Part shown: positions 1-15,562 of the stretch, one piece after another
How positions within the stretch are numbered: position 1 is the first letter of the stretch
How the letters are laid out: the number at the start of each line of letters is the position of its first letter
DNA from: an uncultured Chthonomonas sp.
GTDB taxonomy: Bacteria; Armatimonadota; Chthonomonadetes; Chthonomonadales; CAJBBX01
Length of the DNA: 48,187 nt
Reading direction: 5' to 3'
NCBI GenBank assembly: GCA_903885605.1
Contig: CAISJD010000035.1
Coordinates: forward strand, 1-48,187
Position numbers and translations under genes: made by a program
The notes under the pieces: generated by a model
What the model saw: the letters and a program-made list of their open reading frames with translations, nothing else
Database searches by the model: none
Told to the model about the DNA's origin: nothing

Positions 1-3000
1 GCGGCATGGATGGCCTTGACCTTCTCGGCGGCGAGCGCCGGCGCGCGGCAGGCGGCATCCGTCATCTGGCTGGAGGGCGAAGCCGCCCGGTGCAATGTGA
101 AGCCCAACATCGCCGGTTGGGGCCGCAAGGAGTTCCTCTCCGGTGAGCAGTGGCTCCACCTCTCCATCGACGCCGACAAGGTGGACAGCCAGACGCCCGC
201 TGACGGCGTCCTCATGTCCTATCCCTTCCAGGCCGCCGCCGCGGGCGCCTACGAGGTCTGGGACCGCATCGGCTTCGAGTTCGCACGCACGCCCTTCGAG
301 TGGCGTATCGACAACGGCGCATGGCAGCGCGTCCTCCCCGACCAGCTCACCTGCGACCTGATGGAGTTGGACTTCTGGTGCGAAGTGGCCTGGCTGAAGC
401 TGGGCGACGCCACGCTCACCGCCGGGAGCCACACGCTGGAGGTGCGCCTGCCCCGAACCACGGACGCCAAGGGCCAACGCGAGCGGATGCTCTACGCATC
501 GGACGCGCTCTGCCTCTCCCCTGCTCCGTTCCGGCCCAACGGGCGATTGAAGCCCGGCGAGGTGCGAGGTGATGCCCTCGATGCCGAGGCCGCCAAGCAG
601 ACATTCCAGGTGCCCGAGATGGACAAGCAGGGCCGCACCATGGTCGTGTTGAAGGGCGCGTGGGAGGTCTGCCGCGCCGATGAGCAGATGCCCGCGCCGG
701 TGGCCGAGCCCATCCGCGACCTGCCCACGGACGCCGTCTGGACCGGCATCCCGGTCCCCGGCGACAAGAACACGCTGCGCCCCGACCTGCTCATGGCGCA
801 CCGCCTCTGGTACCGCACCCGCGTCAACGTGCCGGCCGGCGCCGCGGGCCGATCCTGCTTCCTCCGCTTCCCACAGAACAACCTGAACACGACCGTGGTG
901 GTGAACGGCGTCCTGTGCGGCTTCAACAAGAACCCCTTCGTGCAGTTCGACATCGACGTGACGAAGGCCATTCGCCCCGGCGTCAACGAGGTGCTGGTGG
1001 GCATCCGCGACGCCTGGTATGGCTACTCCTACCCACCCAGCGAGCCGATGAAGCTCCGCCGGCAGTTCAACCTGCCGCCCAAGTTTTTCGGCGACGGGTT
1101 CCAGCGGCTGGCCTATCCGATCTGGAACCACCCCGAGTCAGGCCTGCTGCAGACGCCCGAGTTCTGGGTGGCGGGCCGCGCCCGCGCCGCCGACGTCTTC
1201 GTGCGCCCCTCGGTGGCGCGCAAGGAGCTGGCGGCCGACATCACGCTGAGCAATCCCGGCGCCGAGGCCGTGACCGCACGCCTGAAGGTCACCGTCGTGG
1301 ACCCCACCAGCGGTAAGGTGGCTCTGGAGCTTCCCGGCAAGGAGGTCGCTCTGCAGTCGGGCGCCGAGCAGGCCGTTACGGTGGCCGCTCCCTGGGCCGA
1401 TCCGAAGCTCTGGTGGCCCGACGCGCCGCGCATGTACCTCCTACGCGCCGTGGTGGAGGCCGATGGCGGGAGCCCCGACGTCTGCGACACGCCTTTCGGC
1501 TTCCGCGAGTGGAACTGGGCGGGCCGAGACTTCCGCCTGAACGGCATCCCCTGGCGCCTCTGGACCGACTGCCACAGCGCCGCCACGCCCGCCGAGTGGC
1601 TTGCCGACCACCGCGCCGACGGCCACCGGATGATGCGATTCTGGGGCACGACGTGGATGGGCATGGCCCCCGAGAAGGCGCTGGACTACTTCGATCAGAA
1701 CGGCGTCGTCGTCCGCAAATCGGGCATGCTCGACGGCGAGGCCATCGGCTACATGGCCATCGAGGAGGACGCCGAACTGAAGAAGCTCGGCGGTTCCGAC
1801 GTGAAGATGGACCTGATGCGGAACTGGAAGGACCAGGTCTGCGCCGAGGTTCGAGCCCAGCGCAACCATCCCTCCGTCATGATCTGGTCGATCGAGAACG
1901 AGTGGCTCTACATCAACTGCATCAACCTCTACGGCGGCATGATGGACGCCTTCGAGCGCGAGGTGAAGGTCGTGGCCGATGCCGTCATGGCCATCGACCC
2001 CACGCGCCCGGTGATGACCGATGGAGGCGGCGCCAACAAGGACCAGTCGATGCCGGTCCATGGCAACCACTACGTCTTTGACCCCGCCAATGGCCGCTAC
2101 CCCGACCTTGCCTACGAGACCAACGCCAGGGGCGGTGGCCGCGATCGGTGGGTCTGGGACGAGAAGCGCCCGCGCTTCATGGGCGAGGACTTCTTCGCCA
2201 CGGGCATCAATCCCTTCGACTACGCCTACTACGGCGGCGAGGAGACCTTCCAGGGCAAGGCGCAATCGCGGCGGGCGGCGGGGATCATCTACCGCATGCT
2301 CACCGAGGGCTACCGCTGGGCCGGGCAGAGCGCGTGGCACTTCTGGATGGGCCAGGGCGACGCCACCGGCCAGTACGCCTCGCAGTCCGAGCGTGCCGCC
2401 TTCTGCCGCGAGTGGAACTGGACCTTCAAGGCCGGGTCCACGGTGAAGCGGACGATCGGCGTCTTCAATGACAGCCGCTTCGGGGATCCGCTCACCTTCG
2501 CGGCCCAGCTCACCGCCGCCGGGAAGACCGTCTGGCGCATGTCGCGGGTCTGCAACCCGGCGCCCGGCGCGTCGCAGCGCTTCTCGATCGACCTGCCGAT
2601 CCCCGCGGCGCCGGGCCGCAAGGAGTACATCCTGCTCCTGACCCTCAGCGCGGGCGGCAAGGAGCTCTTCCGCGACGCCAAGGCCGTCTCCGCGCTGGGC
2701 GCTCCGGAGCCGCCGGCCCCGCAGCCTGCCGGCGCGGTCTGCGTCTACGACCCCTCCGGGGCCGCGGCCGCCGCCCTGACGGGCCTGGGCGTGAAGTTTA
2801 TGCGCCTCACCTCGCTCCTGTCAGCGCCCGCCCCGTGCAAGGCGCTCATCATCGGCCCTGACGCGCTGACGGCGGCGGAGGCCGCGTCGAGCCGGCTGGC
2901 CGCCTCCGTAGCCGGCGGACGGAGGCTCATCGTGCTGGAGCAGAAGCACCCGCTCCGCTACCAGGGCCTGCCCGCCGAGATGGAGGCCGCGACGAACGAA

Positions 3001-4977
3001 GGCCGCACCGCCTTCTTCGAGGACCTGACGCACCCCATCGCCGCGGGCCTCAAGCAGAAGGACCTCTGGACCTGGGGTGTTGACCTCCCCGTCTACCGGG
3101 ACGCCTACGCCAAGCCGAGCCGGGGCGCCAAGTCGCTCATCCAGTGCCACATGCGGCTGGCCAACACCGCGCTGGCCGAGGCGCCGGTGGGATCGGGCCT
3201 CATGCTCCTCTGCCAGATGGCCGTGGGGCGCAACGCCTCCACGAACGCCGTGGCGGGCCGCCTGCTGGCCAACATGCTCCGCTACGCGCTGGAGTACAAG
3301 CTGGAGTACCGGCCCGTCGCCGCCGCCGTGGAGGGCGACAAGCTCTTCGCGGGAGCGCTGGAAAAGATCGGCCTGAAGCAGACCAGGGCGCAGGGCCCGC
3401 TGCAGGCGATGGCGACGCCGGGTGCGAAGATCGCCGTCATCGAGGCCACGCCACAGAGCCTGAAGGCGCTGGCCGCCGCCCCGGACGCAGTCAAGCGCTT
3501 CACCGCGGCCGGCGGGTGGCTCTTCCTCCACGGCCTCACCGCCGAGGGGCTGGCCGACTACAACAAGGTCGTCGGCGTCGACCACATGATCCGCCCGTTC
3601 CGGCAGGAGCGCGTCACCTTCCCGGCCGTGCGTCACCCGCTCACCGCCGGCCTCACCAACAGCGATGTGGTGATGTACAGCGGCGAGCGCATCTTCGGCT
3701 GGACCGCCGATGAGTTCGTGGCGTCGGACATCTTCAGCGCCTGCGTGGACTACGACGAGGTGGCTCCCTTCGCCAAGCTGCCCTCCGACTACCACTACAA
3801 CATGGTCAACGGGTTGGTCTCGGCCGATGCGTGGAAGTATATCTTCTCCTTTGACCTGACCCGCGACAAGCCCGAGTTCACCATGGAGTTCCCGACGCCG
3901 CAGGAGCTCACGGGCATCGAGTGGATCGGCAACGCCTTCTACCACCTCGTCACGCGCGTCGAACTGAGCGGCGGCGCCGGCACGGCGTCGCTGGCCGTGA
4001 AGCCGGGTAACGAGCCGCAGAGCCTGGAGATCAAGCCCACGGTGAAGGGCTCGCGCATCACGCTCAAGATCACCGACTGGGCCAAGGTCAGCACAGGCGC
4101 CAACGTCGTGGGCATCGATAACATCCGGCTGACCGCCAGGAGGAGCCCGGAGTTCCTCTCCCGCGTCCATCCGCTGCTCAACAACGGCGGGCTCATGCAG
4201 TACGACATGGGCAAGGGCGGCATCGTCCTCTGCAACCTGCTCATCAAGGAGCGCGAACAGGTGCCGGACAACGCGACCAAGAAGCTGCGTATCCTCTCCG
4301 CGCTGCTGCGGAACATGCGGGCCCCCTTCTCCGGCTCGGCCACTGTGATCGCCGGCGAGAACCTCGACTACGAGCCCGTGGACCTCTCCAAGGCCGCCAA
4401 CCAGTACAAGGACGCCCGGGGCTGCTTCGGCGACCGCGAGCGGACGCTGGCCGACCTGCCCAACGGCAAGAACACGTTTGCCGGCGTGCCGTACAACGTC
4501 TACAGCTTCGCCACCTCGCCGGTGCCCACCATCGTCATGCTGGGCGGCGGCGGCGTGCCGGGCAACCTGCCCGACGCCGTGCGTGGCATCGCCGTGAACC
4601 GCAAGGCCGACGCCCTCTTCTTCCTCCAGGCGGCCCGCATCGACGCCGGGCGCGACGACCGCGAGCGCCGCGAGGGCAAGCGCTACGAGTTCGCCCGCTA
4701 CCTGGTCCACTACGCCGACGGCCAGACCGCTACGGTGCCGCTCTGCGTGGAGATCGACGTGGCCGACTACCGGCAGGCCGAGCCGCAGGCGATCCCCGGC
4801 GCGCAGCTCGCCTGGAGCAAGCCCTTCCCGGGCGGCGGCGGGAGCGCGGTGGTGTACAGCAAGCAGTGGAACAACCCGAGGCCGGATGTGGCCATCGCGT
4901 CGGTGGATCTGGAGGTCGGCCCCGACCGGCGGGGCGTGCCCGCACTGCTGGCGCTGACCGTGGCGCGGAGGAGGTAG
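1..4977 (+). CDS. GH2-type glycoside hydrolase, very large, 5' end cut by window
   Basis: Probable secreted or periplasmic glycosidase acting on beta-linked glycans. The frame is open from base 1. The first internal ATG is at 10, and the residues around it (LTFSAASAGARQA) look like the end of a signal peptide, so the true start probably lies left of the window. Numbered from that ATG: an accessory region at about 18-170; a GH2 sugar-binding domain at about 210-390; an Ig-like domain at about 395-500; and a TIM barrel at about 500-830. The barrel carries NHPSVMIWSIENEW, where E631 of the NE pair is the expected acid/base, and FMGED, where E726 is the likely nucleophile. The remaining 800 residues hold two stretches resembling class I glutamine-amidotransferase-like folds (about 910-1110 and 1130-1220), a beta-sandwich-like segment and a C-terminal module (about 1475-1655). 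Total length far exceeds usual GH2 enzymes. The substrate cannot be read from sequence. Confidence 0.85.
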   Translation, partial: AAWMALTFSAASAGARQAASVIWLEGEAARCNVKPNIAGWGRKEFLSGEQWLHLSIDADKVDSQTPADGVLMSYPFQAAAAGAYEVWDRIGFEFARTPFEWRIDNGAWQRVLPDQLTCDLMELDFWCEVAWLKLGDATLTAGSHTLEVRLPRTTDAKGQRERMLYASDALCLSPAPFRPNGRLKPGEVRGDALDAEAAKQTFQVPEMDKQGRTMVVLKGAWEVCRADEQMPAPVAEPIRDLPTDAVWTGIPVPGDKNTLRPDLLMAHRLWYRTRVNVPAGAAGRSCFLRFPQNNLNTTVVVNGVLCGFNKNPFVQFDIDVTKAIRPGVNEVLVGIRDAWYGYSYPPSEPMKLRRQFNLPPKFFGDGFQRLAYPIWNHPESGLLQTPEFWVAGRARAADVFVRPSVARKELAADITLSNPGAEAVTARLKVTVVDPTSGKVALELPGKEVALQSGAEQAVTVAAPWADPKLWWPDAPRMYLLRAVVEADGGSPDVCDTPFGFREWNWAGRDFRLNGIPWRLWTDCHSAATPAEWLADHRADGHRMMRFWGTTWMGMAPEKALDYFDQNGVVVRKSGMLDGEAIGYMAIEEDAELKKLGGSDVKMDLMRNWKDQVCAEVRAQRNHPSVMIWSIENEWLYINCINLYGGMMDAFEREVKVVADAVMAIDPTRPVMTDGGGANKDQSMPVHGNHYVFDPANGRYPDLAYETNARGGGRDRWVWDEKRPRFMGEDFFATGINPFDYAYYGGEETFQGKAQSRRAAGIIYRMLTEGYRWAGQSAWHFWMGQGDATGQYASQSERAAFCREWNWTFKAGSTVKRTIGVFNDSRFGDPLTFAAQLTAAGKTVWRMSRVCNPAPGASQRFSIDLPIPAAPGRKEYILLLTLSAGGKELFRDAKAVSALGAPEPPAPQPAGAVCVYDPSGAAAAALTGLGVKFMRLTSLLSAPAPCKALIIGPDALTAAEAASSRLAASVAGGRRLIVLEQKHPLRYQGLPAEMEAATNEGRTAFFEDLTHPIAAGLKQKDLWTWGVDLPVYRDAYAKPSRGAKSLIQCHMRLANTALAEAPVGSGLMLLCQMAVGRNASTNAVAGRLLANMLRYALEYKLEYRPVAAAVEGDKLFAGALEKIGLKQTRAQGPLQAMATPGAKIAVIEATPQSLKALAAAPDAVKRFTAAGGWLFLHGLTAEGLADYNKVVGVDHMIRPFRQERVTFPAVRHPLTAGLTNSDVVMYSGERIFGWTADEFVASDIFSACVDYDEVAPFAKLPSDYHYNMVNGLVSADAWKYIFSFDLTRDKPEFTMEFPTPQELTGIEWIGNAFYHLVTRVELSGGAGTASLAVKPGNEPQSLEIKPTVKGSRITLKITDWAKVSTGANVVGIDNIRLTARRSPEFLSRVHPLLNNGGLMQYDMGKGGIVLCNLLIKEREQVPDNATKKLRILSALLRNMRAPFSGSATVIAGENLDYEPVDLSKAANQYKDARGCFGDRERTLADLPNGKNTFAGVPYNVYSFATSPVPTIVMLGGGGVPGNLPDAVRGIAVNRKADALFFLQAARIDAGRDDRERREGKRYEFARYLVHYADGQTATVPLCVEIDVADYRQAEPQAIPGAQLAWSKPFPGGGGSAVVYSKQWNNPRPDVAIASVDLEVGPDRRGVPALLALTVARRR

Positions 4978-5067: not shown

Positions 5068-5700
5068 ATGACCATGCCTGAGGTAGGGGCGCAAAAGGTC
5101 GTGCTGGCCGAGATCGCGCCCGGCGAGAAGGTCAGGTGGCTCGGCAAGCCCGATCCCGCCCAGTACGCCCGGCAGGCGTTACCGATGGTCATCTTCGGTA
5201 TCCCCTGGACGCTCTTCGCGCTCTTCTGGGAGGCCGGCGCCATGCAGCCCGCGCTTCAGGGGATCGGCCGCGCCGACGGGCCCGGCATGGCCTTCTCGGT
5301 TCTGTTTCCACTCTTTGGCCTGCCCTTCATAGGCATCGGAATCGGCATGCTCACCTCGCCGATCTGGTACCGTCGCAAGGCCGCAAACACCATCTATGCC
5401 GTGACAGACCGCCGCGCCCTGATCATCTCGGGCGCCGGCACGCGGACGGTGCAGAGCTATGACCGCACCGCCATCGGCACGCTCACGCGCAAGGAACGGG
5501 CGGACGGCTCCGGCGACCTGCTCTTCGGCCCCGACACGCCTGCGGTGCAGTGGGGCAACTCCCGCCGTTCGTCATCCAACCAGACGACCCCGGGCTTCTA
5601 CGGCATTCGAACCGTGCGGCAGGTGGAGCAGCTCCTGCGCGAGGCGCTGGACGCTCGGCCGACCCTCGACGCCGGTGACGACAACATCATCAATCCCTGA
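5068..5700 (+). CDS. membrane protein with bacterial PH-like domain
   Basis: A 210-residue protein of unknown function. The ATG follows GGAGG with 6-base spacing. Two hydrophobic segments, at about 33-53 and 82-104, predict membrane anchoring. The soluble C-terminal part contains the NTIYAVTDRRALI strand typical of bacterial PH-like (bPH) proteins of this layout, followed by a beta-rich stretch and a C-terminal helix (VRQVEQLLREAL). The N-terminal PGEKVRWLGKPDP segment also recurs in such proteins. It has its own promoter, and the Gfo/Idh/MocA gene begins 17 bases after its stop, so it may be co-transcribed with the sugar cassette. No catalytic residues are visible. Confidence 0.75.
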   Translation: MTMPEVGAQKVVLAEIAPGEKVRWLGKPDPAQYARQALPMVIFGIPWTLFALFWEAGAMQPALQGIGRADGPGMAFSVLFPLFGLPFIGIGIGMLTSPIWYRRKAANTIYAVTDRRALIISGAGTRTVQSYDRTAIGTLTRKERADGSGDLLFGPDTPAVQWGNSRRSSSNQTTPGFYGIRTVRQVEQLLREALDARPTLDAGDDNIINP

Positions 5701-5717
5701 CTGACTGGAGATTCACT

Positions 5718-6854
5718 GTGCAGACCTACCGGATCGGCGTCATTGGCGCGGGCATGATGGGCAAGACGCACTCATGGTGCTGGCAGTCGCTGCCCTTCTT
5801 CTATGAGAAGCTGCCCTACCGCTGCGTCCTCCACGGCGTCGCGACGTCGCGCATCGCCAGCGCCGAGGCCGCCCGCGATGCGCTGGGCTTCTCCCGAGCC
5901 TACGAGACGCCCGAGGCGCTCATCGCCGACCCGGAGATCGACATCGTCGACATCGCGTCGCCCAATGATGCCCACGCCGACCAGCTCCTCGCCGCCGCCG
6001 CCGCCGGCAAGAAGGTCTACTGCGACAAGCCGCTCACCGGCCGGCTCGACGAGGCCGAGCGCCTCGCCGCGGCGCTGCCCGATCCGGCCTCCGTGGGACA
6101 GATGGTCTTCCACAACCGATGCCTCCCCGCCACGATCCTGGCCCGAAAGATGGTGGGCGAGGGCCGCCTGGGCGAGATCATCGGCTTTCGCGGCGCGTAC
6201 CTCCACGCGGGCAACGTGCCGGAGGGGAAGCCATTGGCCTGGAAGGACAGCCGCGCCATGGGAGCCGGCGTCCTCTACGACCTGGGCTCCCACCTGATCG
6301 ACCTCGTCACCTGGACCTGCGGCTCGCCGCTGGCCGAGGTCCACGCGCGGCAGGTGACGCTGAATCCCCGCCGCCCCTCCCGCGAGGACCCCACGCGCTG
6401 GGTCGAGCAGGACTCCGACGACATGACCCTCATGTCCGCGCGCCTCGCCTCGGGAGCCGTGGGCTCGCTGGAGTGCTCCAAGATCGCCACCGGCGCCATG
6501 GATGAGCTTCGCTTCGAAATCCACGGCCGCAAGGGCGCCCTGCGCTTCAACCTGATGGACGCGAACTGGCTGGAGCACTTCGACGCCGCCGACCCCGAGA
6601 TGCCCTACGGCGGCTCCTCGGGCTACAAGCGCATCGACTGTGTCCGCCGCTACCCCGCTCCCGCCGGCTTCCCGTCGCCGAAGGCCACCGTCGGCTGGCT
6701 ACGCGCGCACCTGCACAGCGTCTACACCTTCATCGATGCGGTCCATACTGGCGCGCCGTTCGAGCCATCCATCCAGCGCGGCATCGACCTGGAGCGTATG
6801 CTCGCCGCCGTCGAGCGCGCGGCCCGATCCGGCGCATCGGAGCGGTTGGCATGA
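5718..6854 (+). CDS. Gfo/Idh/MocA-family oxidoreductase
   Basis: A cytoplasmic NAD(P)-dependent oxidoreductase of the glucose-fructose oxidoreductase / inositol dehydrogenase family, 378 residues, the usual length. It starts at a GTG preceded by CTGGAG. The Rossmann motif GVIGAGMMGKTH lies at the N-terminus. The CDKPLTG segment at about residue 105 corresponds to the family EKP motif with its catalytic lysine, and YDLGSHLIDLVTW provides the conserved GSHxxD in the C-terminal domain. The family oxidises or epimerises sugars and cyclitols. The specific substrate is unknown. The stop codon overlaps the next start (ATGA), so it is translationally coupled to the GNAT-GH38 fusion and probably acts on sugars released or modified by it. 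Confidence 0.9.
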   Translation: MQTYRIGVIGAGMMGKTHSWCWQSLPFFYEKLPYRCVLHGVATSRIASAEAARDALGFSRAYETPEALIADPEIDIVDIASPNDAHADQLLAAAAAGKKVYCDKPLTGRLDEAERLAAALPDPASVGQMVFHNRCLPATILARKMVGEGRLGEIIGFRGAYLHAGNVPEGKPLAWKDSRAMGAGVLYDLGSHLIDLVTWTCGSPLAEVHARQVTLNPRRPSREDPTRWVEQDSDDMTLMSARLASGAVGSLECSKIATGAMDELRFEIHGRKGALRFNLMDANWLEHFDAADPEMPYGGSSGYKRIDCVRRYPAPAGFPSPKATVGWLRAHLHSVYTFIDAVHTGAPFEPSIQRGIDLERMLAAVERAARSGASERLA

Positions 6855-9800
6855 CGGCGGCAAACGCAGTGCGTGTTCCTGTCGCAGCCCTGGAGCCGCT
6901 CACGGCCCGCAACGCCGAGGGGATGTCCGCCTACCTCGACGCCCAGGACGGCGGCACGCTCAAGTACTTCCACCCCAAGCGCACCGACGTCGCGTACATC
7001 CGGCGCCTCCTCTCCGGCGATACGGACGGCTTTGTGGTGGCCTTCGGCGCCTGGGTCGACGCGCGGCCCGATGACCCTTCCGGCCATGCGCCCATCGTGG
7101 ACGGGCGGCGCCTCGTGGGCTACATCTGGCTCTTCGAGATGCAGACCGACAGCCCGCTCCTTGGCATCTGCGTCGATCCGGCATGGCGACGGCGCGGCAT
7201 CGGCCGCAGCCTGCTGGAGCGGGCCATCGAGTCGGTCCTCCTCTGGGGCAAGCGCGAGCTTCGCCTCAGCGTGGATATCGGCAACACCGGGGCCATTGAG
7301 CTCTACAAGAGGCTCGGCTTCGCCATCACAGAGCTTGGCGGCAATGAGCGTGTAGGCTATCACTCCATGTCTCTGGACCTGGCATCCAGGCACTCGCAGC
7401 GCGTGGAGGTGATCCGCCGGCGATGCGCCCGAACGCGCATTGCGCTGGTGCCCTACACCCACTGCGACTGGGCATGGGTCCACACGCGGGCCTGGCACGA
7501 GCGCCGCTACGCCCTCATCTTTGCCGAGACGCTGGAGATCATGCGGCGAGACCCCGACTACCGCTGGTACATCGACAATTGGGCATGCCAGCTCGCGCCG
7601 CTGCTCGACCTTCGGCCTGACCTGCTGCCCGAGCTCCGTAGCCGGATCGCCGAAGGCCGCATCGCCGTCTGCGGCGGCTACTCCAACGTCCGCCCGCACA
7701 TGGTGGGCGACGAGACCTACGTGCGTAGCTTGCTCATCGGGCGTCGCCTCTTCGGCGAGGCCTTCCCCGAGGCCGATCTCACCGTCCAGGCCGACTCCGT
7801 CGATGTCGCCACCGGCCACCCGCAGCTTCCGCAGCTACTGCGCCAGGCCGGTTACACCTCCCTGCGCTTCTGGCGCCCCTTTTCGTCGCTCAGCATCAAG
7901 GGCATTCCCGTCGACTTCCGCTGGGAGGGCCTCGACGGCTCCGAAGTGATCGCCTCGCGCGGCGGCTACGGCGGCCTCTTCGCCCCGGCCGAGGCGCACC
8001 GGCCGCTCTTGCAGCCCGGTACCCTCGAAGCCGACGCCATGGCCGAGATGCTCTGGGACGCCGAGTTGCGCGAGCGCGCCTGGCTAGCGCCCACGGAGAT
8101 GCTCTGGCTCTCGCTGGGCTGCGACGACACGCGCCCGCTTCGCACCATCGATGACGCCCCGGCCGACGCCCCGGCCCTCATCGCCCGCTGGCGCGAACTG
8201 GGCCTCGGCCACATCGCCTTCGCCACGCCCGTGGACTACTTCGCCGATCTGCGCAGCCGCGCCGACCGCCTGCCGCGTATCACCGGCACGCTCGACCCCT
8301 GCGATGTGGCCTACAACGCCGCATGGAACGGCGAGCGCGGCCTGGCCGTCCAGCGCGTACAGAACGACGCCCTCCTCACGCAGGCCGAGGCCGCCGAGGC
8401 TCTGGCTTCGCTCACGCCGGGAGCCGCCACGCCTGCCGATGTCCCGGTCCCGCACGAGCCGCTCTGGCGCGACCACCTCCTCACCTGCGCCCACGCCACC
8501 CAGTGGCTCTTCACCGAGGACTTCGCCGAGATCAAGGAGATCGCCGACCGCGTGGGACTGGAGGCCCGCCGCCTCCGCACCGAGGCCCTGCGCACGCTGG
8601 CCCAGGGCGTCCACCTGCCTCCCGATGCCCTGGCGGTCACCTGGAACCCGCTCCCCTGGCGCCGCACCGCCGCGGTGTCGGTGCAGGTGGCCCGCACCGG
8701 TGATGCCTGGCCGCTGGCCCTGGTCGACGGCGCAGGCCGTCCGCTGGTGGACCAGACCCTCGGCGCCAAGACCGGCCAGGGAGGCTACCCCGAGGAGACC
8801 CGGCTGGTCTCCCTGGACCTCCCGCCCATGGGCATGGCCGTCGTGCGTGAGCGGCCCCGAGATGCGGCAGATGCCTGCGCCGAGCCGGACGAGCGTCCTG
8901 CGCCGCCCGATGGCTCCGAGCTGCTCTACCTGGTCCTCCACGACGTGGACTGCCCCGGCGGCCCCCTCCACGTCGGCCCGATCACCGCCTCACACACCCC
9001 GGTATGGAGCGACTGGGTTCAGCTTGAGGCCGGCCCGGTCCGTCGGCGCGCCTGTCGCACCGGCGAGATCGACGGCCTGCCCGTGACGATGACGCTGGAC
9101 CTGCATGCCGGCAGCCCGCGCCTCGACGCCGAGGTGCAGGTCGATTGGCCGGGCCGCGACGGCTTCCTGGCGATCCGCACTCCGCTGCCGCCCGGCGCGC
9201 GCCTCTTCGGTGACATCCCGTTCGGCGTGGAGCTGAAGGACATCGACAACGAGCCCTACCTCAAGGACGCGTGGCCGGCCTGCAACAGCATGGAGCGGTG
9301 CCGCGAGGGCCTCTTCTATGCCCGGAGCTTCGTCGCCTGCCAGGCCGATGGGGGCGGGTACGCGCTGATCGGCCGCAACACGGACCGCTACTACCGCCGC
9401 AGCCCGGACGGCGCCTGGCTGGAGCACCTCCTCCTCAACAGCGTCGTCACGCTGGACGAGTGGGAGCATCACGTCGAGCCCTCAACGATCGGCGGTAGGG
9501 GGCCGCACACGCTCCGCTTCAGCCTGCTGCCCTACGTCGGCACATGGCAGGAGGCGTGTCTGCCGCGCTTGGCGGCCGAGGCGCGCGCCGGTGCGCCGGC
9601 AGGTCGCCCGGTACGCTCGGCCGGCGCCATGGTCGCGGATGTGGGCCCCGAGCTATCGGTGGAGCCCGGCTCCGTCCTTGCCACCGCCGTCTGGCGCAGC
9701 GCTGATTGCTTCCATGTCCGGCTCCATGAGGCCCACGGTGCAGCGGCGGAGTGCGTGGTCTCGCTGCCCTTCGAGCCTGCAAGCGTGGAGTGCCTGGACC

Positions 9801-9907
9801 TGCGCGGAGGCCCGCTGGAGGGCATCGAGCCGACCACCGACGGCCGTCAGGTGCGCTTCACGCTGCCGCCGTGGAAGATCGCCACCCTGAAGGCCCATCT
9901 GGTCTAG
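6851..9907 (+). CDS. GNAT acetyltransferase fused to GH38-like alpha-mannosidase
   Basis: A single open frame of 1018 residues joins two families. Residues about 1-178 are a GNAT N-acetyltransferase: RRRGIG at 113-118 is the acetyl-CoA pyrophosphate loop, followed by GNTGAIELYKRLGF, which is typical of the family C-terminal part. Residues about 195-1018 resemble a GH38 glycosidase. PYTHCDW supplies the metal-binding H204 and D206, and QADSVD places D315 where the family nucleophile sits; a large beta-sandwich C-terminal part follows. GH38 enzymes are zinc-dependent retaining alpha-mannosidases. The start overlaps the upstream stop by four bases, and no internal stop or frameshift is visible at the junction. 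A URO-D-family gene begins 18 bases downstream. The fusion suggests acetylation and cleavage of the same amino-sugar or glycoside, which is inference. Specificity is unknown. Confidence 0.85.
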   Translation: MTAANAVRVPVAALEPLTARNAEGMSAYLDAQDGGTLKYFHPKRTDVAYIRRLLSGDTDGFVVAFGAWVDARPDDPSGHAPIVDGRRLVGYIWLFEMQTDSPLLGICVDPAWRRRGIGRSLLERAIESVLLWGKRELRLSVDIGNTGAIELYKRLGFAITELGGNERVGYHSMSLDLASRHSQRVEVIRRRCARTRIALVPYTHCDWAWVHTRAWHERRYALIFAETLEIMRRDPDYRWYIDNWACQLAPLLDLRPDLLPELRSRIAEGRIAVCGGYSNVRPHMVGDETYVRSLLIGRRLFGEAFPEADLTVQADSVDVATGHPQLPQLLRQAGYTSLRFWRPFSSLSIKGIPVDFRWEGLDGSEVIASRGGYGGLFAPAEAHRPLLQPGTLEADAMAEMLWDAELRERAWLAPTEMLWLSLGCDDTRPLRTIDDAPADAPALIARWRELGLGHIAFATPVDYFADLRSRADRLPRITGTLDPCDVAYNAAWNGERGLAVQRVQNDALLTQAEAAEALASLTPGAATPADVPVPHEPLWRDHLLTCAHATQWLFTEDFAEIKEIADRVGLEARRLRTEALRTLAQGVHLPPDALAVTWNPLPWRRTAAVSVQVARTGDAWPLALVDGAGRPLVDQTLGAKTGQGGYPEETRLVSLDLPPMGMAVVRERPRDAADACAEPDERPAPPDGSELLYLVLHDVDCPGGPLHVGPITASHTPVWSDWVQLEAGPVRRRACRTGEIDGLPVTMTLDLHAGSPRLDAEVQVDWPGRDGFLAIRTPLPPGARLFGDIPFGVELKDIDNEPYLKDAWPACNSMERCREGLFYARSFVACQADGGGYALIGRNTDRYYRRSPDGAWLEHLLLNSVVTLDEWEHHVEPSTIGGRGPHTLRFSLLPYVGTWQEACLPRLAAEARAGAPAGRPVRSAGAMVADVGPELSVEPGSVLATAVWRSADCFHVRLHEAHGAAAECVVSLPFEPASVECLDLRGGPLEGIEPTTDGRQVRFTLPPWKIATLKAHLV

Positions 9908-9925: not shown

Positions 9926-11050
9926 ATGACCGAGCGCGAGCGCTGGCTGGAGACGATGCTGTTCGGCAAGCCCGACCGGGTGCCCTGGTCGCCGGGCGGG
10001 CCCCGCGAGTCGACGCTCCGCGCGTGGCGCACCCAGGGGTTGGGCGAGGGCGAGGACTGGTACGTCCGGCTGCGTGACGAGGTCGGGCTGCCGCCGTTGG
10101 TGCACGCCGCGCGCCCCGCCGTTTGGATCAAGCACACCATGGAGCCCATCTTCCCCGAGGTCGTCCTCGAGGAGCGAGGCGACAGCCGCGTCGTGCAGGA
10201 CTGGAAGGGCAACGTCTGCGAGATATCCAGCGCATTCGACGTGAGCTACCTGCGCTCGGCCAGGGACTTCGTCACGCGCCGCTGGATCCGCTGCCCGGTG
10301 GAGGGTTGGGCCGACTGGGAGGCCATGAAGGCCCGCTACGACGCGCAGGACCCCTCCCGCGTCCCCGCCGACCTGGCGCAGAACGCCCCGGCCCTGCGCA
10401 CACGCGATCACGTCGTGGGCCTCCACGTCCACGGCCCGTTCTGGCAGATGCGCGAGTGGATGGGCTTCGAGGGGCTCTGCATGGCCTTCATCGAGCAGCC
10501 CGACCTGATCCACGACATGGTGCGCTTCTGGAAGGAGTACGTGGCCGCCCTGCTCATGCGCGTGGTCCCGCTGGTGCAGCTCGACTACTTCCACATCTCC
10601 GAAGACATGGCCTACAAGGTCAAGCCCATGATCGGCCCGGCCATGTGCCGCCGGTTCCTCATGCCCTGCTGGTCCGCCTGGGGCGAGGTCATCCGCGCCC
10701 ACGGATGCCCGGTCTACCAGGTCGACTCCGATGGGTTCGTGGGCGACCTGATCCCGGTCTGGATGGAGGCCGGCATCAACGCCACCGACCCGCTGGAGGT
10801 GGCCGCGGGCAACGACCTGCCGGCCCTGCGCCGCCGGTTCGGCCGCCGGATGGCCTACTGCGGGGGCGTCGATAAGCGTGAGATGGCCAGGGGAGGGGAG
10901 AGCCTGCGCGCCGAGTTGGCCCGCCTCACGCCCGTCCTGCGCGACGGCGGCTACATCCCCAGCTGCGACCACGGCGTCCCGCCGGACATCAGCTGGCCCA
11001 ACTTCATCGACTACGCCCGCCGACTGGCCCACCTCACCGGCTGGCAATAG
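9926..11050 (+). CDS. uroporphyrinogen decarboxylase (URO-D) family protein, probably not heme-related
   Basis: A 374-residue TIM-barrel protein of the URO-D superfamily, which includes true uroporphyrinogen decarboxylase and corrinoid methyltransferases such as MtaA and CmuA. The start follows a strong GAGGAGG. YCGGVDKREMARGG and GGYIPSCDHGVPPD are the C-terminal motifs typical of the uncharacterised group often found near sugar-metabolism genes. No heme genes or corrinoid proteins lie nearby. It is the last gene of a tight cassette with the Gfo/Idh/MocA and GNAT-GH38 genes and is followed by a hairpin at 11117-11140. Its reaction is unknown; a decarboxylase or methyltransferase role in the same pathway is possible. 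Confidence 0.8.
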   Translation: MTERERWLETMLFGKPDRVPWSPGGPRESTLRAWRTQGLGEGEDWYVRLRDEVGLPPLVHAARPAVWIKHTMEPIFPEVVLEERGDSRVVQDWKGNVCEISSAFDVSYLRSARDFVTRRWIRCPVEGWADWEAMKARYDAQDPSRVPADLAQNAPALRTRDHVVGLHVHGPFWQMREWMGFEGLCMAFIEQPDLIHDMVRFWKEYVAALLMRVVPLVQLDYFHISEDMAYKVKPMIGPAMCRRFLMPCWSAWGEVIRAHGCPVYQVDSDGFVGDLIPVWMEAGINATDPLEVAAGNDLPALRRRFGRRMAYCGGVDKREMARGGESLRAELARLTPVLRDGGYIPSCDHGVPPDISWPNFIDYARRLAHLTGWQ

Positions 11051-11241: not shown

Positions 11242-14200
11242 CTACGGCACGACGTTGAACGCAGTGCCGCCGGACGCCGCCAAGTACCAGCTGTCGCCGG
11301 CGAACTCGGCGGTGGCCGTGTGCGAGCCGGTGGGCTCGCCGGCCGGGATGGCCCAGTTCACCGTCGCCCAGCCGTCGGCGGCCACGTTGGCGGAGCCGAT
11401 GACGGAACCGTTCACCTTGAAGGTGATGGACTTGCCGGGCTGGATCACGTAGTCCGGCAGGCTCCGCACGTAGCTCTTCAGCGGGTGCGTCGTGCCCACC
11501 TTCCCGGAGCGCACGTAGGTCCAGAGGTAGAGGTTGCCCTGCAGCACACCCAGCTTGCCCGTGTTGCTGGACGCCGGGTAGCCCGCGTTTCCGGCCCAGC
11601 TTGCGCCGATGACGCGGTCACCGGCGCCCGCGCCCTCCGGCACTGTGTAGCCGAATGAGATGTAGCCGCTGGAGTTGGTCGCCTGCGAACCGACGGACGT
11701 GCCATCGACGGTCATCGACATCGTCTTGCCGGGGATGATGGCGTTGGCCAGGGTGTAGAGGTAGGCCTTCAGCACAGTGTAGGCCTTGATCTTCACGTTC
11801 AGCCGGTCGACCACGTAGGTCTTGGTCGCCACGCTGGTCGAAGTGAGCGTCGCCGAGCCCTCGCATGGGTCATAGGTGGTGTCGCCGCCGAACCGCGCCG
11901 TGATGGTCCGGCTTGCGGCTCCGTCGGTGATACCCCAGTTTAGCGCCGCCTCGCCGGCTGCCGATGTCGTCGCCGAGCCGACCGTCGTGCCCGCCACAGC
12001 GAAGCTCACGGTGCGGCCGGAGAGCCAGGCGTTGTCGCTGGTCCGCTTCAGGTAGCCCTTCAGGGCGATGGTGGTGGTGTAGATGCCGGTCCGGTCCGGC
12101 ACGTACATGGAGGTCGGCGCGCCCACCACGGTCAGGGTGGCGGAGGCGCTCGCCGCCGAGTACCCGCCGCCGCCGGCGAAGGAGCCCTCCAGCGTGTTGG
12201 CGCCGGTGGCGACGGCCACCGTGTAGCCGTACGCCGCAACGCCTGCCGCGTCGGTAACGCCTGAGCCCACGCCTGTGCCCGCAACCTTGAAGCCCACCGT
12301 CTGCCCGGCCACAGCGGCGCCGTTGGAGGTGCGCGTCAGGGTGGCATTCAGCGTCACGGCAGAGCCGGCATTGGCGGTCCGGTTCGGCACGGCCAACTGC
12401 GTGGCGATCACCGGTAGGCTCACTGTGCCCGTGCCGCTGGAGGCCAGGAAGATCGCCTCGCCCAGGAAGTCGGCCTTCACGGCATGCGACGCCGGGCCGG
12501 CGGGCATGGCGTAGATGACGGTCGCCACCCCGGTGGCGTTGGTGTAGGCCGTGCCGATGGCCGTTCCGTCCACCAGGAAGTGGATGGGTTCATAGTCGAC
12601 AATGGCGTTGGTGTCGGCCCTGCGTAGCGTGGCGGTGAGCCGGGCGTTGGTGCCGGCGCCGGCGGTCACGTCGGGCACGGTGAGCGTGGTGGCTACGCCC
12701 ATGATGTTGAAATCGATCCCGGGGATGTCACAGCCCACCGGCACCACCAGGCCCGTGAGCTGGTGACTGTCGCCCTGGAAGGTGGCGCGGACCGTGTACG
12801 TGCCCGGGGCGATGTTGGTGAAGCGGTAGCCGCCATCGGGCCGGGTGCTCACCGTCTGGATGGCGCCCACCGCCGGGATCGCCTTCACGGTGGTGTTGGC
12901 CGCCGGAGAGCCCTTGTACTGCACCATGCCCACGATGCCGCCTACCGTGTCATAGCGCGGGTTGGGGTTGGCAGTCAGGTTCAGGGTGTTGTACACATGC
13001 ATCAGGCCATAGCCGTAGAACTGGTTCCAGCCGCCGCTGAAGTCCGAGGCGCGCTGCAGAGCCTGCCATGTCTGGACGATGGTGGCGGGCGTGCGCGGCA
13101 GGCCCTTCTGCCCGATGTAGAGGGAGGCCAGGCCTGCCACCTGCGGCGAGGCCATAGAGGTGCCCATCAGGTACTCATAGTTCATGGCCGCTTCGGCGTC
13201 GTCGTTCAGGGTGCAGTGGTACGTCGGCATGGTGCTGTAGACGCCCAGCAGCCACATGATGTCGTAGTCGAAGTCGCCGCCGGGCGCCGTGATGGCGACC
13301 TGCTCGCCGTAGTTCGAGTAGGACGCCAGGCTGGTGCGCGAGCAGGCGGAGACCGCGAAGACGCGGCTCAGGCAGGCCGGGTAGTTCGGCGTGCTGAAGG
13401 TGCCGTCGTTGCCGATGGCCGCCACGCACATCATGCCGCGGTACCATGCGTAGTTGATCGCGTCCTGCTCGGCCTGGGAGTACATATATCCGCCCAGCGA
13501 AAGGTTGCAGACCTGCGCCCCGGCGTCGGCCGCGTAGACGATGCCCGCCGCGATGTCGGTCTCGTAGCCCATGCCGTCGGCTGTGACCACCTTGATCGAC
13601 AGGACGTTGGCGTTGTAGCCTACGCCGACCGTGCCCACCGCGTTGTTCGTGGCAGCGGCGGCGATGCCGGTAACGTGGGTTCCGTGGCCGTATTCATCCC
13701 AGGCGTCGGTATCTACCACGCCGCCGATGATGGAGCGGTCCAGGGGCCTCAGGAGCTGGCCGCCGGTGGACACCGACGAACCCGTGCCGCCGGCGTTGAT
13801 GAAGTCGGGATGGTCGTAGTCGATGCCGGAGTCGACCACGGCCAGCAGCACGGCGTTTGTGCCCTTGGCCACGGAGGAGCTGTAGTACTTGTTGGGCCAG
13901 ATGCTCCAACCGGCCACGTTCTCCGTCATGTGGGAGTCCCACTTGTACCAGGTGAAGACCTCGGGGTCGGTGGTGATGTTGTGGTCGTAGTCGTTGTAGG
14001 CCGGGTCGTTCGGGTCGACGACGAGGGGATACCGCGTGGCCAGCGGCTCCATGTAGAGCACATCCGGGCTCAGGCGCAGGGCCTCGACGGCGGCCGGCTC
14101 CTCGATGCGTAGCCGCTGGATATGCAGTTGCGGGATCTGGGAGATGACCCGGACCCGCGGGTCCTGAACCATGGCGACGCGGCCGGTCTGCCATGCCTTG

Positions 14201-14442
14201 GCCCGGAAGCGTACGGCATACTCATTGGGCACGTACGCGGGCCGGTGGGCCGCCGGCCGCAGGGGCTCCCGGTAGTACCGTGTGCCGCCGGCCGCCAGCC
14301 GGGCCAACTCGCGCCGCGCGGCCTGAGCCTCCGGCGACACGGGGACAGGCATCTGCAGCCGCTGTGCGTTGGATTGGGAGCAGACGCTCGCGAACAGGAC
14401 GGCGGTCGCCGCCTGAAGGATTACTTGGTTGCGCAACGCCAT
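11242..14442 (-). CDS. secreted subtilisin-like (S8) protease with five Ig-like repeats
   Basis: An exported serine endopeptidase of 1066 residues. The open frame runs further upstream, but the ATG at 14442 follows GGAGGG and starts a clear signal peptide (MALRNQVILQAATAVLFASV, cleaved near SNAQ), so I chose it. A propeptide-like region spans about 30-150. The catalytic triad is D204 (VVDSGIDYDHP), H253 (GHGTHVTG) and S429 (GTSMASPQ), with N345 of AAIGNDG for the oxyanion hole. A carboxypeptidase-regulatory-like domain at about 480-570 (GGYRFTNIAPGTYTVRA) follows, then five Ig-like repeats of about 97 residues each to the C-terminus, each with a VxGTxVGS-type strand. The tail probably binds glycans or the cell surface. 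The gene appears monocistronic, bounded by hairpins on both sides. Confidence 0.93.
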   Translation of the reverse strand: MALRNQVILQAATAVLFASVCSQSNAQRLQMPVPVSPEAQAARRELARLAAGGTRYYREPLRPAAHRPAYVPNEYAVRFRAKAWQTGRVAMVQDPRVRVISQIPQLHIQRLRIEEPAAVEALRLSPDVLYMEPLATRYPLVVDPNDPAYNDYDHNITTDPEVFTWYKWDSHMTENVAGWSIWPNKYYSSSVAKGTNAVLLAVVDSGIDYDHPDFINAGGTGSSVSTGGQLLRPLDRSIIGGVVDTDAWDEYGHGTHVTGIAAAATNNAVGTVGVGYNANVLSIKVVTADGMGYETDIAAGIVYAADAGAQVCNLSLGGYMYSQAEQDAINYAWYRGMMCVAAIGNDGTFSTPNYPACLSRVFAVSACSRTSLASYSNYGEQVAITAPGGDFDYDIMWLLGVYSTMPTYHCTLNDDAEAAMNYEYLMGTSMASPQVAGLASLYIGQKGLPRTPATIVQTWQALQRASDFSGGWNQFYGYGLMHVYNTLNLTANPNPRYDTVGGIVGMVQYKGSPAANTTVKAIPAVGAIQTVSTRPDGGYRFTNIAPGTYTVRATFQGDSHQLTGLVVPVGCDIPGIDFNIMGVATTLTVPDVTAGAGTNARLTATLRRADTNAIVDYEPIHFLVDGTAIGTAYTNATGVATVIYAMPAGPASHAVKADFLGEAIFLASSGTGTVSLPVIATQLAVPNRTANAGSAVTLNATLTRTSNGAAVAGQTVGFKVAGTGVGSGVTDAAGVAAYGYTVAVATGANTLEGSFAGGGGYSAASASATLTVVGAPTSMYVPDRTGIYTTTIALKGYLKRTSDNAWLSGRTVSFAVAGTTVGSATTSAAGEAALNWGITDGAASRTITARFGGDTTYDPCEGSATLTSTSVATKTYVVDRLNVKIKAYTVLKAYLYTLANAIIPGKTMSMTVDGTSVGSQATNSSGYISFGYTVPEGAGAGDRVIGASWAGNAGYPASSNTGKLGVLQGNLYLWTYVRSGKVGTTHPLKSYVRSLPDYVIQPGKSITFKVNGSVIGSANVAADGWATVNWAIPAGEPTGSHTATAEFAGDSWYLAASGGTAFNVVP

Positions 14443-14543
14443 CGAAAGGCCCTCCGGCATGGGGATACGGATGCAGCGGCAAGGAGCCCCTGTACTACTC
14501 TCATGACGGGCCGTCGGGCGGCGTTGTTCCCGAGCCACATGCG

Positions 14544-14583
14544 CCGAGGGCGCCGACCCCATCGCTGGGACCGGCGCCCTCGG
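14544..14583 (-). terminator. hairpin terminator after the aldolase gene
   Basis: CCGAGGGCGCCG and CGGCGCCCTCGG form a perfect 12-bp stem with a 16-base loop, 25 bases beyond the aldolase stop on the minus strand. It separates that gene from the subtilase gene. No T-tract follows. Confidence 0.6.
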
Positions 14584-14608
14584 ATCCGTCGGCTGCTTCC
14601 GCTTGTGG

Positions 14609-15562
14609 CTACTTGCTCTTGACGAGCGCCGTGGCCGCCTCAAGCTGCCCTGCGGAGCCCAGGAGCTCGTTCCTGCTGGCGATGAAGTCCGCGTAGGCCG
14701 GCATGAAGAGCTTGCCCGGATCGCGCAGGTCGAACTTCTCGGGCTTGTCGCGGAAGAACTCGCGGTGGACGCGGCACCAGACCAGGCGGCCGTCGGTGTC
14801 GATGTTGATCTTGCAGACGCCCTTCTGCGCGGCCGGCAGGTACTCAGCCGGGTTGACGCCCTTGGCGCCCCGCATGGCTCCGCCGGCGGCGTTGATCCGC
14901 TCGACTTCATCCTGCGGAACCGACGAGGAGCCGTGCATGACGAGCGGGAAGCCCGGGCAGAGGCGCTGGATCTCCTCGATCACCTCGAAGTGGAGGCCCT
15001 GGCTGCCGGAGAACTTGAAGGCGCCGTGGCTGGTGCCGATGGCGCAGGCCAGGCTGTCGCAGCCCGAGCGCTCGATGAACTCCTTGGCCTCGGTCGGGTT
15101 GGTGAGCTTGGCATCCGCCTCGGCTACGGAGACATGCTCCTCGACGCCGCCGAGCTGGCCCAGCTCGGCCTCAACGGTGATACCCTTCGGGTGGGCCGCA
15201 TCGGCCACGCGCTTGGTCACCGCGATGTTCTCCTCGAAGGAGAGGTGCGAGCCGTCGATCATAACGGAGCTGTAGAAGCCGCTCTCGATGCAGTCGTAGC
15301 AGGTCTGCTCGTCGCCATGGTCCAGATGCACGGCGAAGAGGGCATCCGGCCAGATCTGGTCGGCCGCGCGGATGATCGCCTCGAGCATCAACTTGTTGGT
15401 GTACGAGCGGGCGCCCTTGCTGATCTGGATGATGAACGGCGCCTTGGACGCCATATTGCCCTGGAAGAGGCCCATGGCCTGCTCCAGGTTGTTGATGTTG
15501 TACGCCCCTAGGGCATACTTGCCGTACGCATGCTCGAATAGCGCGCGGGTCGAAACGATCAC
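14609..15562 (-). CDS. fba: class II fructose-1,6-bisphosphate aldolase
   Basis: A cytoplasmic zinc aldolase that interconverts fructose-1,6-bisphosphate with dihydroxyacetone phosphate and glyceraldehyde-3-phosphate. 317 residues, normal for class II. It starts at a GTG preceded by AAGGGAGG. The catalytic D81 and zinc ligand H82 lie in HLDHGDEQ, E133 in VEAELGQLGG, H179 in IGTSHGAFKF and H210 in VMHGSSS, which also binds phosphate. A tagatose-bisphosphate or related sugar-phosphate specificity cannot be excluded from sequence. The 145-base gap upstream separates it from htrA. A terminator-like hairpin follows. Confidence 0.95.
   Translation of the reverse strand: MIVSTRALFEHAYGKYALGAYNINNLEQAMGLFQGNMASKAPFIIQISKGARSYTNKLMLEAIIRAADQIWPDALFAVHLDHGDEQTCYDCIESGFYSSVMIDGSHLSFEENIAVTKRVADAAHPKGITVEAELGQLGGVEEHVSVAEADAKLTNPTEAKEFIERSGCDSLACAIGTSHGAFKFSGSQGLHFEVIEEIQRLCPGFPLVMHGSSSVPQDEVERINAAGGAMRGAKGVNPAEYLPAAQKGVCKINIDTDGRLVWCRVHREFFRDKPEKFDLRDPGKLFMPAYADFIASRNELLGSAGQLEAATALVKSK

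Follow-up and report, generated by a model that had tools for sequence, protein, structure and literature searches.

A GNAT acetyltransferase domain joined to a divergent GH38 glycosidase in Armatimonadota: a possible bifunctional enzyme of amino-sugar breakdown

Why would an acetyltransferase and a glycoside hydrolase be encoded as a single polypeptide? The question is raised by one gene in the 48,187-nucleotide stretch of Armatimonadota DNA that we analyzed (the whole of which we refer to as the window). A first-pass annotation, made from the sequence alone, had described this gene as one uninterrupted frame joining a GNAT domain with a good acetyl-CoA loop (RRRGIG) to a GH38-like mannosidase, and had proposed that the two domains perform a coupled step on one amino sugar or glycoside. 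Profile searches bear out the architecture. The Pfam family Acetyltransf_1 matches residues 75-157 (E 4e-14, 53 bits versus a gathering cut-off of 20.7), a core that contains the loop and that an alignment of fused relatives widens to about residues 12-176. Glyco_hydro_38N matches residues 197-469 (E 9e-22, 78 bits versus a gathering cut-off of 25) and Glyco_hydro38C2 matches residues 947-1013 (E 2e-5, 24.9 bits versus a gathering cut-off of 22), and the whole GH38 core spans residues 197-1017. A complete GNAT domain and a complete GH38 core thus reside in one chain (Table 1). The same annotation held that GH38 is not normally joined to an acetyltransferase and, in agreement with this, we found no report of a GH38 joined to a GNAT in the open-access literature.

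Table 1. Positions in the window of the fusion gene, its domains and candidate active-site residues, and the two flanking genes.
Feature	Position	Strand	Basis or remark
Gfo/Idh/MocA dehydrogenase gene	5718..6854	+	upstream; 4-bp overlap with fusion gene
GNAT-GH38 fusion gene	6851..9907	+	1018 aa, single open frame
GNAT domain, residues about 12-176	6884..7378	+	Pfam core and alignment of fused relatives
Acetyl-CoA loop RRRGIG, residues 113-118	7187..7204	+	fits Q/R-x-x-G-x-G/A; pattern kept in fused relatives
Linker SQRVEVIRRRCARTR, residues 182-196	7394..7438	+	similar to N-terminal segment in unfused GH38 relatives
GH38 N-terminal catalytic domain, residues 197-469	7439..8257	+	Pfam
H204 and D206, predicted metal ligands	7460..7468	+	alignments to 2wyh and same-genome GH38
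D318, predicted nucleophile and metal ligand	7802..7804	+	alignments to 2wyh and same-genome GH38
A320, replaces sugar-pocket Phe (SpGH38 F127)	7808..7810	+	alignments
D425, aligns with acid/base Asp (SpGH38 D232)	8123..8125	+	alignment to 2wyh
H548, predicted fourth metal ligand, and A549, replaces sugar-contact Asp (SpGH38 D352)	8492..8497	+	alignments
GH38 C-terminal beta-sandwich (Glyco_hydro38C2), residues 947-1013	9689..9889	+	Pfam
URO-D-like gene	9926..11050	+	18 bp downstream of fusion gene; match just below Pfam cut-off

The join recurs well beyond the window. A search for the same fusion across Armatimonadota, which the first-pass annotation had recommended, recovered this architecture as one frame without internal stops in 10 of the 291 genomes searched, and these carriers belong to three families: three genomes are from the window's genus, three more are from the same family (f1), one is from f13 and three are from f16. 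Within the window's genus, the fusion proteins of the three genomes are 87-88% identical to each other and to the window protein. Between close pairs, dN/dS is 0.14-0.17 for the GNAT half and 0.09-0.14 for the GH38 catalytic region, and both halves are therefore under purifying selection and have been maintained. No relatives were found among the viral contigs that we scanned, and plasmid records yielded distant GH38 matches only.

We mapped the active site of the GH38 half using a subfamily profile alignment with Streptococcus pyogenes SpGH38 (PDB 2wyh), read against the published residues of that enzyme by counting off positions in the printed alignment (chain numbering minus 22), and using a second alignment with other GH38 proteins from the fusion's own genome. 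In SpGH38, the metal ligands are H13, D15, D125 and H351, the nucleophile is D125 and the acid/base is D232, and R149 and W18 are also described (PMC2815779). The profile alignment places H204, D206, D318, H548, D425, R342 and W209 of the fusion protein at the equivalent positions. Of the three residues named in the first-pass annotation, both alignments uphold H204 and D206 as metal ligands, but the catalytic role given to D315 passes to D318, which aligns with the nucleophile Asp of the solved enzyme and with the Asp of the PDTFG motif in the same-genome proteins, where the QFHD motif supplies the His that aligns with H548. D318 is invariant in the subfamily whereas D315 is missing from 9 of its 23 members, and we rejected D315 as the nucleophile. 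The fourth ligand, H548, and the acid/base residue, D425, are additions to the earlier set. By alignment, the GH38 catalytic set appears intact, with four metal ligands, a nucleophile Asp and an acid/base Asp all at GH38 positions.

The pocket that holds the sugar has changed. In the -1 subsite, the equivalents of F127 and D352 (A320 and A549) are Ala in every aligned subfamily member; the former position, two residues after the nucleophile, is a small residue in the most distant subfamily members, and the latter directly follows the last His ligand. In SpGH38, D352 joins Y574 in binding the one swainsonine hydroxyl that is not bound to metal (PMC2815779). We infer that at these two positions the subfamily's -1 subsite has lost recognition of the usual mannose pattern; the altered site could accommodate an amino or acylamino group. 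The first-pass description of this half as a GH38-like mannosidase is upheld as to family, by profiles and residues, and loses support as to activity, the two -1 contacts to mannose expected of a GH38 alpha-mannosidase (F127 and D352 in SpGH38) being lost in all aligned members. The GH38 half belongs to a divergent GH38 subfamily, and with its sugar pocket altered in this way, annotation of the subfamily as alpha-mannosidase is unwarranted without an assay.

The genes that accompany the fusion are metabolic in character. The proposal that it sits in a translationally coupled cassette is borne out by its start codon, which overlaps the stop codon of the upstream Gfo/Idh/MocA gene as ATGA (6851-6854), and orthologs of this dehydrogenase occur in the cassettes of G040 and other genomes. 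Upstream of the fusion, G040 carries genes for a glycerate kinase, a cupin, the same Gfo/Idh, an FGGY kinase and a creatininase-family protein, and G007 carries those for a class-III aminotransferase, a cupin, an FGGY kinase and a creatininase-family protein, with the set standing directly upstream in both genomes; in G268, an unfused GH38 relative lies near the same gene set. When loci were read around creatininase orthologs from many families, an FGGY kinase was present in 23, a cupin in 15, an aminotransferase in 12 and a Gfo/Idh in 9. Among the 28 genomes that carry the GH38 subfamily, 26 have the creatininase ortholog itself, versus 43 of 291 overall; the association is 11/12 versus 18/45 when counted by taxonomic family (p 3e-5) and 6/6 versus 1/6 within f1. 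In f16, the gene set near creatininase has no aminotransferase, and a search of this family for a close aminotransferase ortholog found none. Our literature search on the combination of cupin, aminotransferase, FGGY kinase, Gfo/Idh and creatininase-family genes returned nothing, and the recurrent set looks like an uncharacterised sugar pathway.

Several other genes in the window were also noted. A forward-strand frame at 22644-26345 matches the GH123 N-terminal domain very strongly (1042 bits) but leaves a long N-terminal part unmatched, and a GH2-like protein of 1655 aa (10-4977, forward strand) has Pfam matches only at about residues 260-675. Between the latter and the dehydrogenase, a 210-aa frame (5068-5700, forward strand) has a weak match to PuhB, a photosynthetic assembly protein (30 bits versus a cut-off of 110), and no Pfam match. 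On the reverse strand, 11242-14910 encodes a 1222-aa subtilisin-like protease that has a prodomain as well as Ig-like repeats.

The explanation that we tentatively place first, as a possibility short of an even chance, is that the fusion is a cytosolic bifunctional enzyme that breaks down an amino-sugar-containing alpha-glycoside. The GH38 half would cleave the alpha-glycoside by the metal-dependent retaining GH38 mechanism, with D318 as nucleophile, D425 as acid/base and a -1 subsite altered for a sugar other than plain mannose, and the GNAT half would use acetyl-CoA to acetylate an amino group on that substrate or on its product. A sugar bearing an amino group is suggested because the class-III aminotransferase gene stands beside genes for a sugar kinase, an isomerase-like cupin and a dehydrogenase. 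A GNAT would be a natural enzyme to acetylate such an amine, and the GH38 pocket is changed where mannose is normally recognised, both of which support the amino-sugar reading. Complete sets of catalytic residues in the two halves, and the upkeep of the fusion by selection in ten genomes, also count in its favor. Acetyl-CoA is cytosolic and the 1018-aa protein has no signal peptide apparent by eye, which fits a cytosolic location. The coupled step advanced in the first-pass annotation is in this way somewhat better supported than before, by the aminotransferase gene set and the two lost -1 contacts, while we infer, rather than observe, the activity of both halves, the amine on the substrate and the coupling of the two reactions. 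Several observations weigh against it: unfused GH38 members manage without a GNAT, with no such GNAT at the cassette loci that we read for them; G004 carries the set but lacks the fusion; the f16 set lacks the aminotransferase; and in the window's genome the cassette orthologs are on other contigs, with four cassette genes away from the fusion.

Two main rivals have to be weighed. The first, which we consider rather unlikely, holds that two independent activities of one pathway are tethered for co-expression, with the GNAT acting on another intermediate or detoxifying a by-product. Unfused GH38 relatives without a GNAT are consistent with this arrangement, as is the occurrence of the GNAT lineage in free-standing form, which in f16 includes a member adjoining a Liv-type ABC operon (a neighbourhood that gave no substrate clue). 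The history of the join is what tethering predicts less well. In a tree of the GH38 half, unfused relatives separate the fused members into an f1/f13 group and an f16 group, and in a tree of the GNAT half, the f16 fused domains cluster with free-standing GNATs from their own genomes (support 92/87) and away from f1/f13. At the junction, a segment resembling the start of unfused GH38 proteins (xxIRRRL) is retained in f1/f13; in f16, the GNAT passes almost straight into the first GH38 strand. From trees and junctions together we prefer two separate GNAT-GH38 fusions, with the qualification that a single-origin topology is not rejected (AU p 0.10 and 0.14). If domains from these two families were indeed joined twice, that would point to a functional link between GNAT and GH38.

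The second rival, which we judge unlikely, is a sugar-gated protein acetyltransferase, whose GH38 half would bind or process a sugar and whose GNAT would acetylate a protein, be it the enzyme itself, a pathway enzyme or a regulator. Fungal Ngs1, with its GH3-like domain, offers a precedent by analogy (PMC5063960), and the predicted structure of the GNAT leaves room for it. An AF2 model of the GNAT domain alone (mean pLDDT 68) matches solved N-acetyltransferases at a Z of about 17, which supports a GNAT fold for the N-terminal half, and the model resembles protein N-terminal acetyltransferases (RimI, Naa10) and small-amine enzymes alike, with tied scores, such that the acceptor is not readable from the modelled fold. 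An AF2 model of the full-length fusion, built from three near-identical sequences only, has a pLDDT of 32. The fusion of the same GNAT lineage, marked in fused members by a conserved F-H-P motif, to other enzyme types also speaks for gating. In eight genomes (L109-L115, L122) it is fused N-terminally to an unnamed domain of about 440 aa, which matches no Pfam family above cut-off and no solved (PDB) relative by sequence, and which we call TIM-barrel-like from its sequence pattern only; within the phylum, strong matches to this domain are nearly all in GNAT fusions. In four genomes (L116-L119) the partner is ceramidase-like, by a PF04734 match below cut-off in two and by similarity to those in the other two, the fusion being C-terminal in three and N-terminal in one. 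Three points count against gating: the GH38 half, in contrast to a pure sensor, keeps every catalytic residue; no target suggests itself; and the genomic context is metabolic.

These additional partners raise a broader idea, which we regard as doubtful: that one Armatimonadota GNAT lineage has been fused repeatedly to unrelated enzymes of one amino-sugar breakdown pathway (GH38, possibly twice; TIM-barrel-like; ceramidase-like), building sugar-amine acetylation into them. The creatininase ortholog is present in 20 of 21 genomes with any of the three fusion types, an association due in part to shared ancestry, and the TIM-barrel-like and ceramidase-like fusions are not adjacent to the gene set. 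If true, it would amount to a modular acetyl-capping system within sugar catabolism.

We rate as less probable again the reading in which the amino-sugar idea is mistaken and the GH38 half acts as an ordinary alpha-mannosidase or as a mannosylglycerate hydrolase. Mannosylglycerate hydrolase is the best NCBIfam match of this half, and glycerate kinase genes are found upstream of the G040 fusion and, in f16, close by on the opposite strand. This match is weak, at 42 bits versus an equivalog cut-off of 1138, which does not support identity with MngB; glycerate kinase falls outside the recurrent gene set, and an ordinary mannosidase would not be expected to lack two sugar contacts in all members. 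That assembly or annotation artefactually joined two genes, which the first-pass annotation had named as a possible undoing of the fusion, has nothing in its favor except that the records probably derive from MAGs, and can be dismissed as negligible, given the same join without internal stops, under purifying selection, in ten genomes of three families.

The preferred reading, a bifunctional amino-sugar glycosidase and acetyltransferase, can be set beside several known systems. With the GH38 alpha-mannosidases (SpGH38, Drosophila Golgi alpha-mannosidase II and MngB) the fusion protein shares the order of GH38 domains, the four metal ligands, the nucleophile, the acid/base and the equivalents of R149 and W18; it differs from them in its weak overall similarity, in the Ala residues at the F127 and D352 positions, in a one-residue-class insert before the nucleophile motif and in the added N-terminal GNAT. 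Its GNAT has the fold and acetyl-CoA motif of 2ge3, RimI (5isv), PA4866 (2j8m) and Naa10, yet is only about 16-23% identical to them and belongs to a lineage with the F-H-P motif in its fused members. O-GlcNAcase likewise combines a glycosidase with a GNAT-fold domain in a single polypeptide, but it consists of a GH84 followed by a C-terminal GNAT-fold domain whose loop is unlike the classical CoA loop (PMC3919268), whereas the family is different, the domain order reversed and the loop intact in the fusion. Ngs1 combines a GH3-like sugar-binding domain that lacks catalytic residues with a GNAT that has conserved acetyl-CoA residues, and acts as a histone-acetylating sensor in a eukaryote (PMC5063960); the fusion shares the pairing of a sugar-binding GH domain with a GNAT, but it keeps the GH catalytic residues and has the opposite domain order. 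With its N-terminal GNAT and a GH38 partner, in place of GH84 or GH3 with a C-terminal GNAT, it resembles these two proteins by analogy only. Glycosidase-GNAT fusions are thus already known in kind, and this one stands out by its GH38 partner and the gene set attached to it. It offers a concrete case, open to testing, in which one bacterial protein combines a glycosidase with an acetyltransferase that looks active by sequence, and in which a recurrent gene set provides the context.
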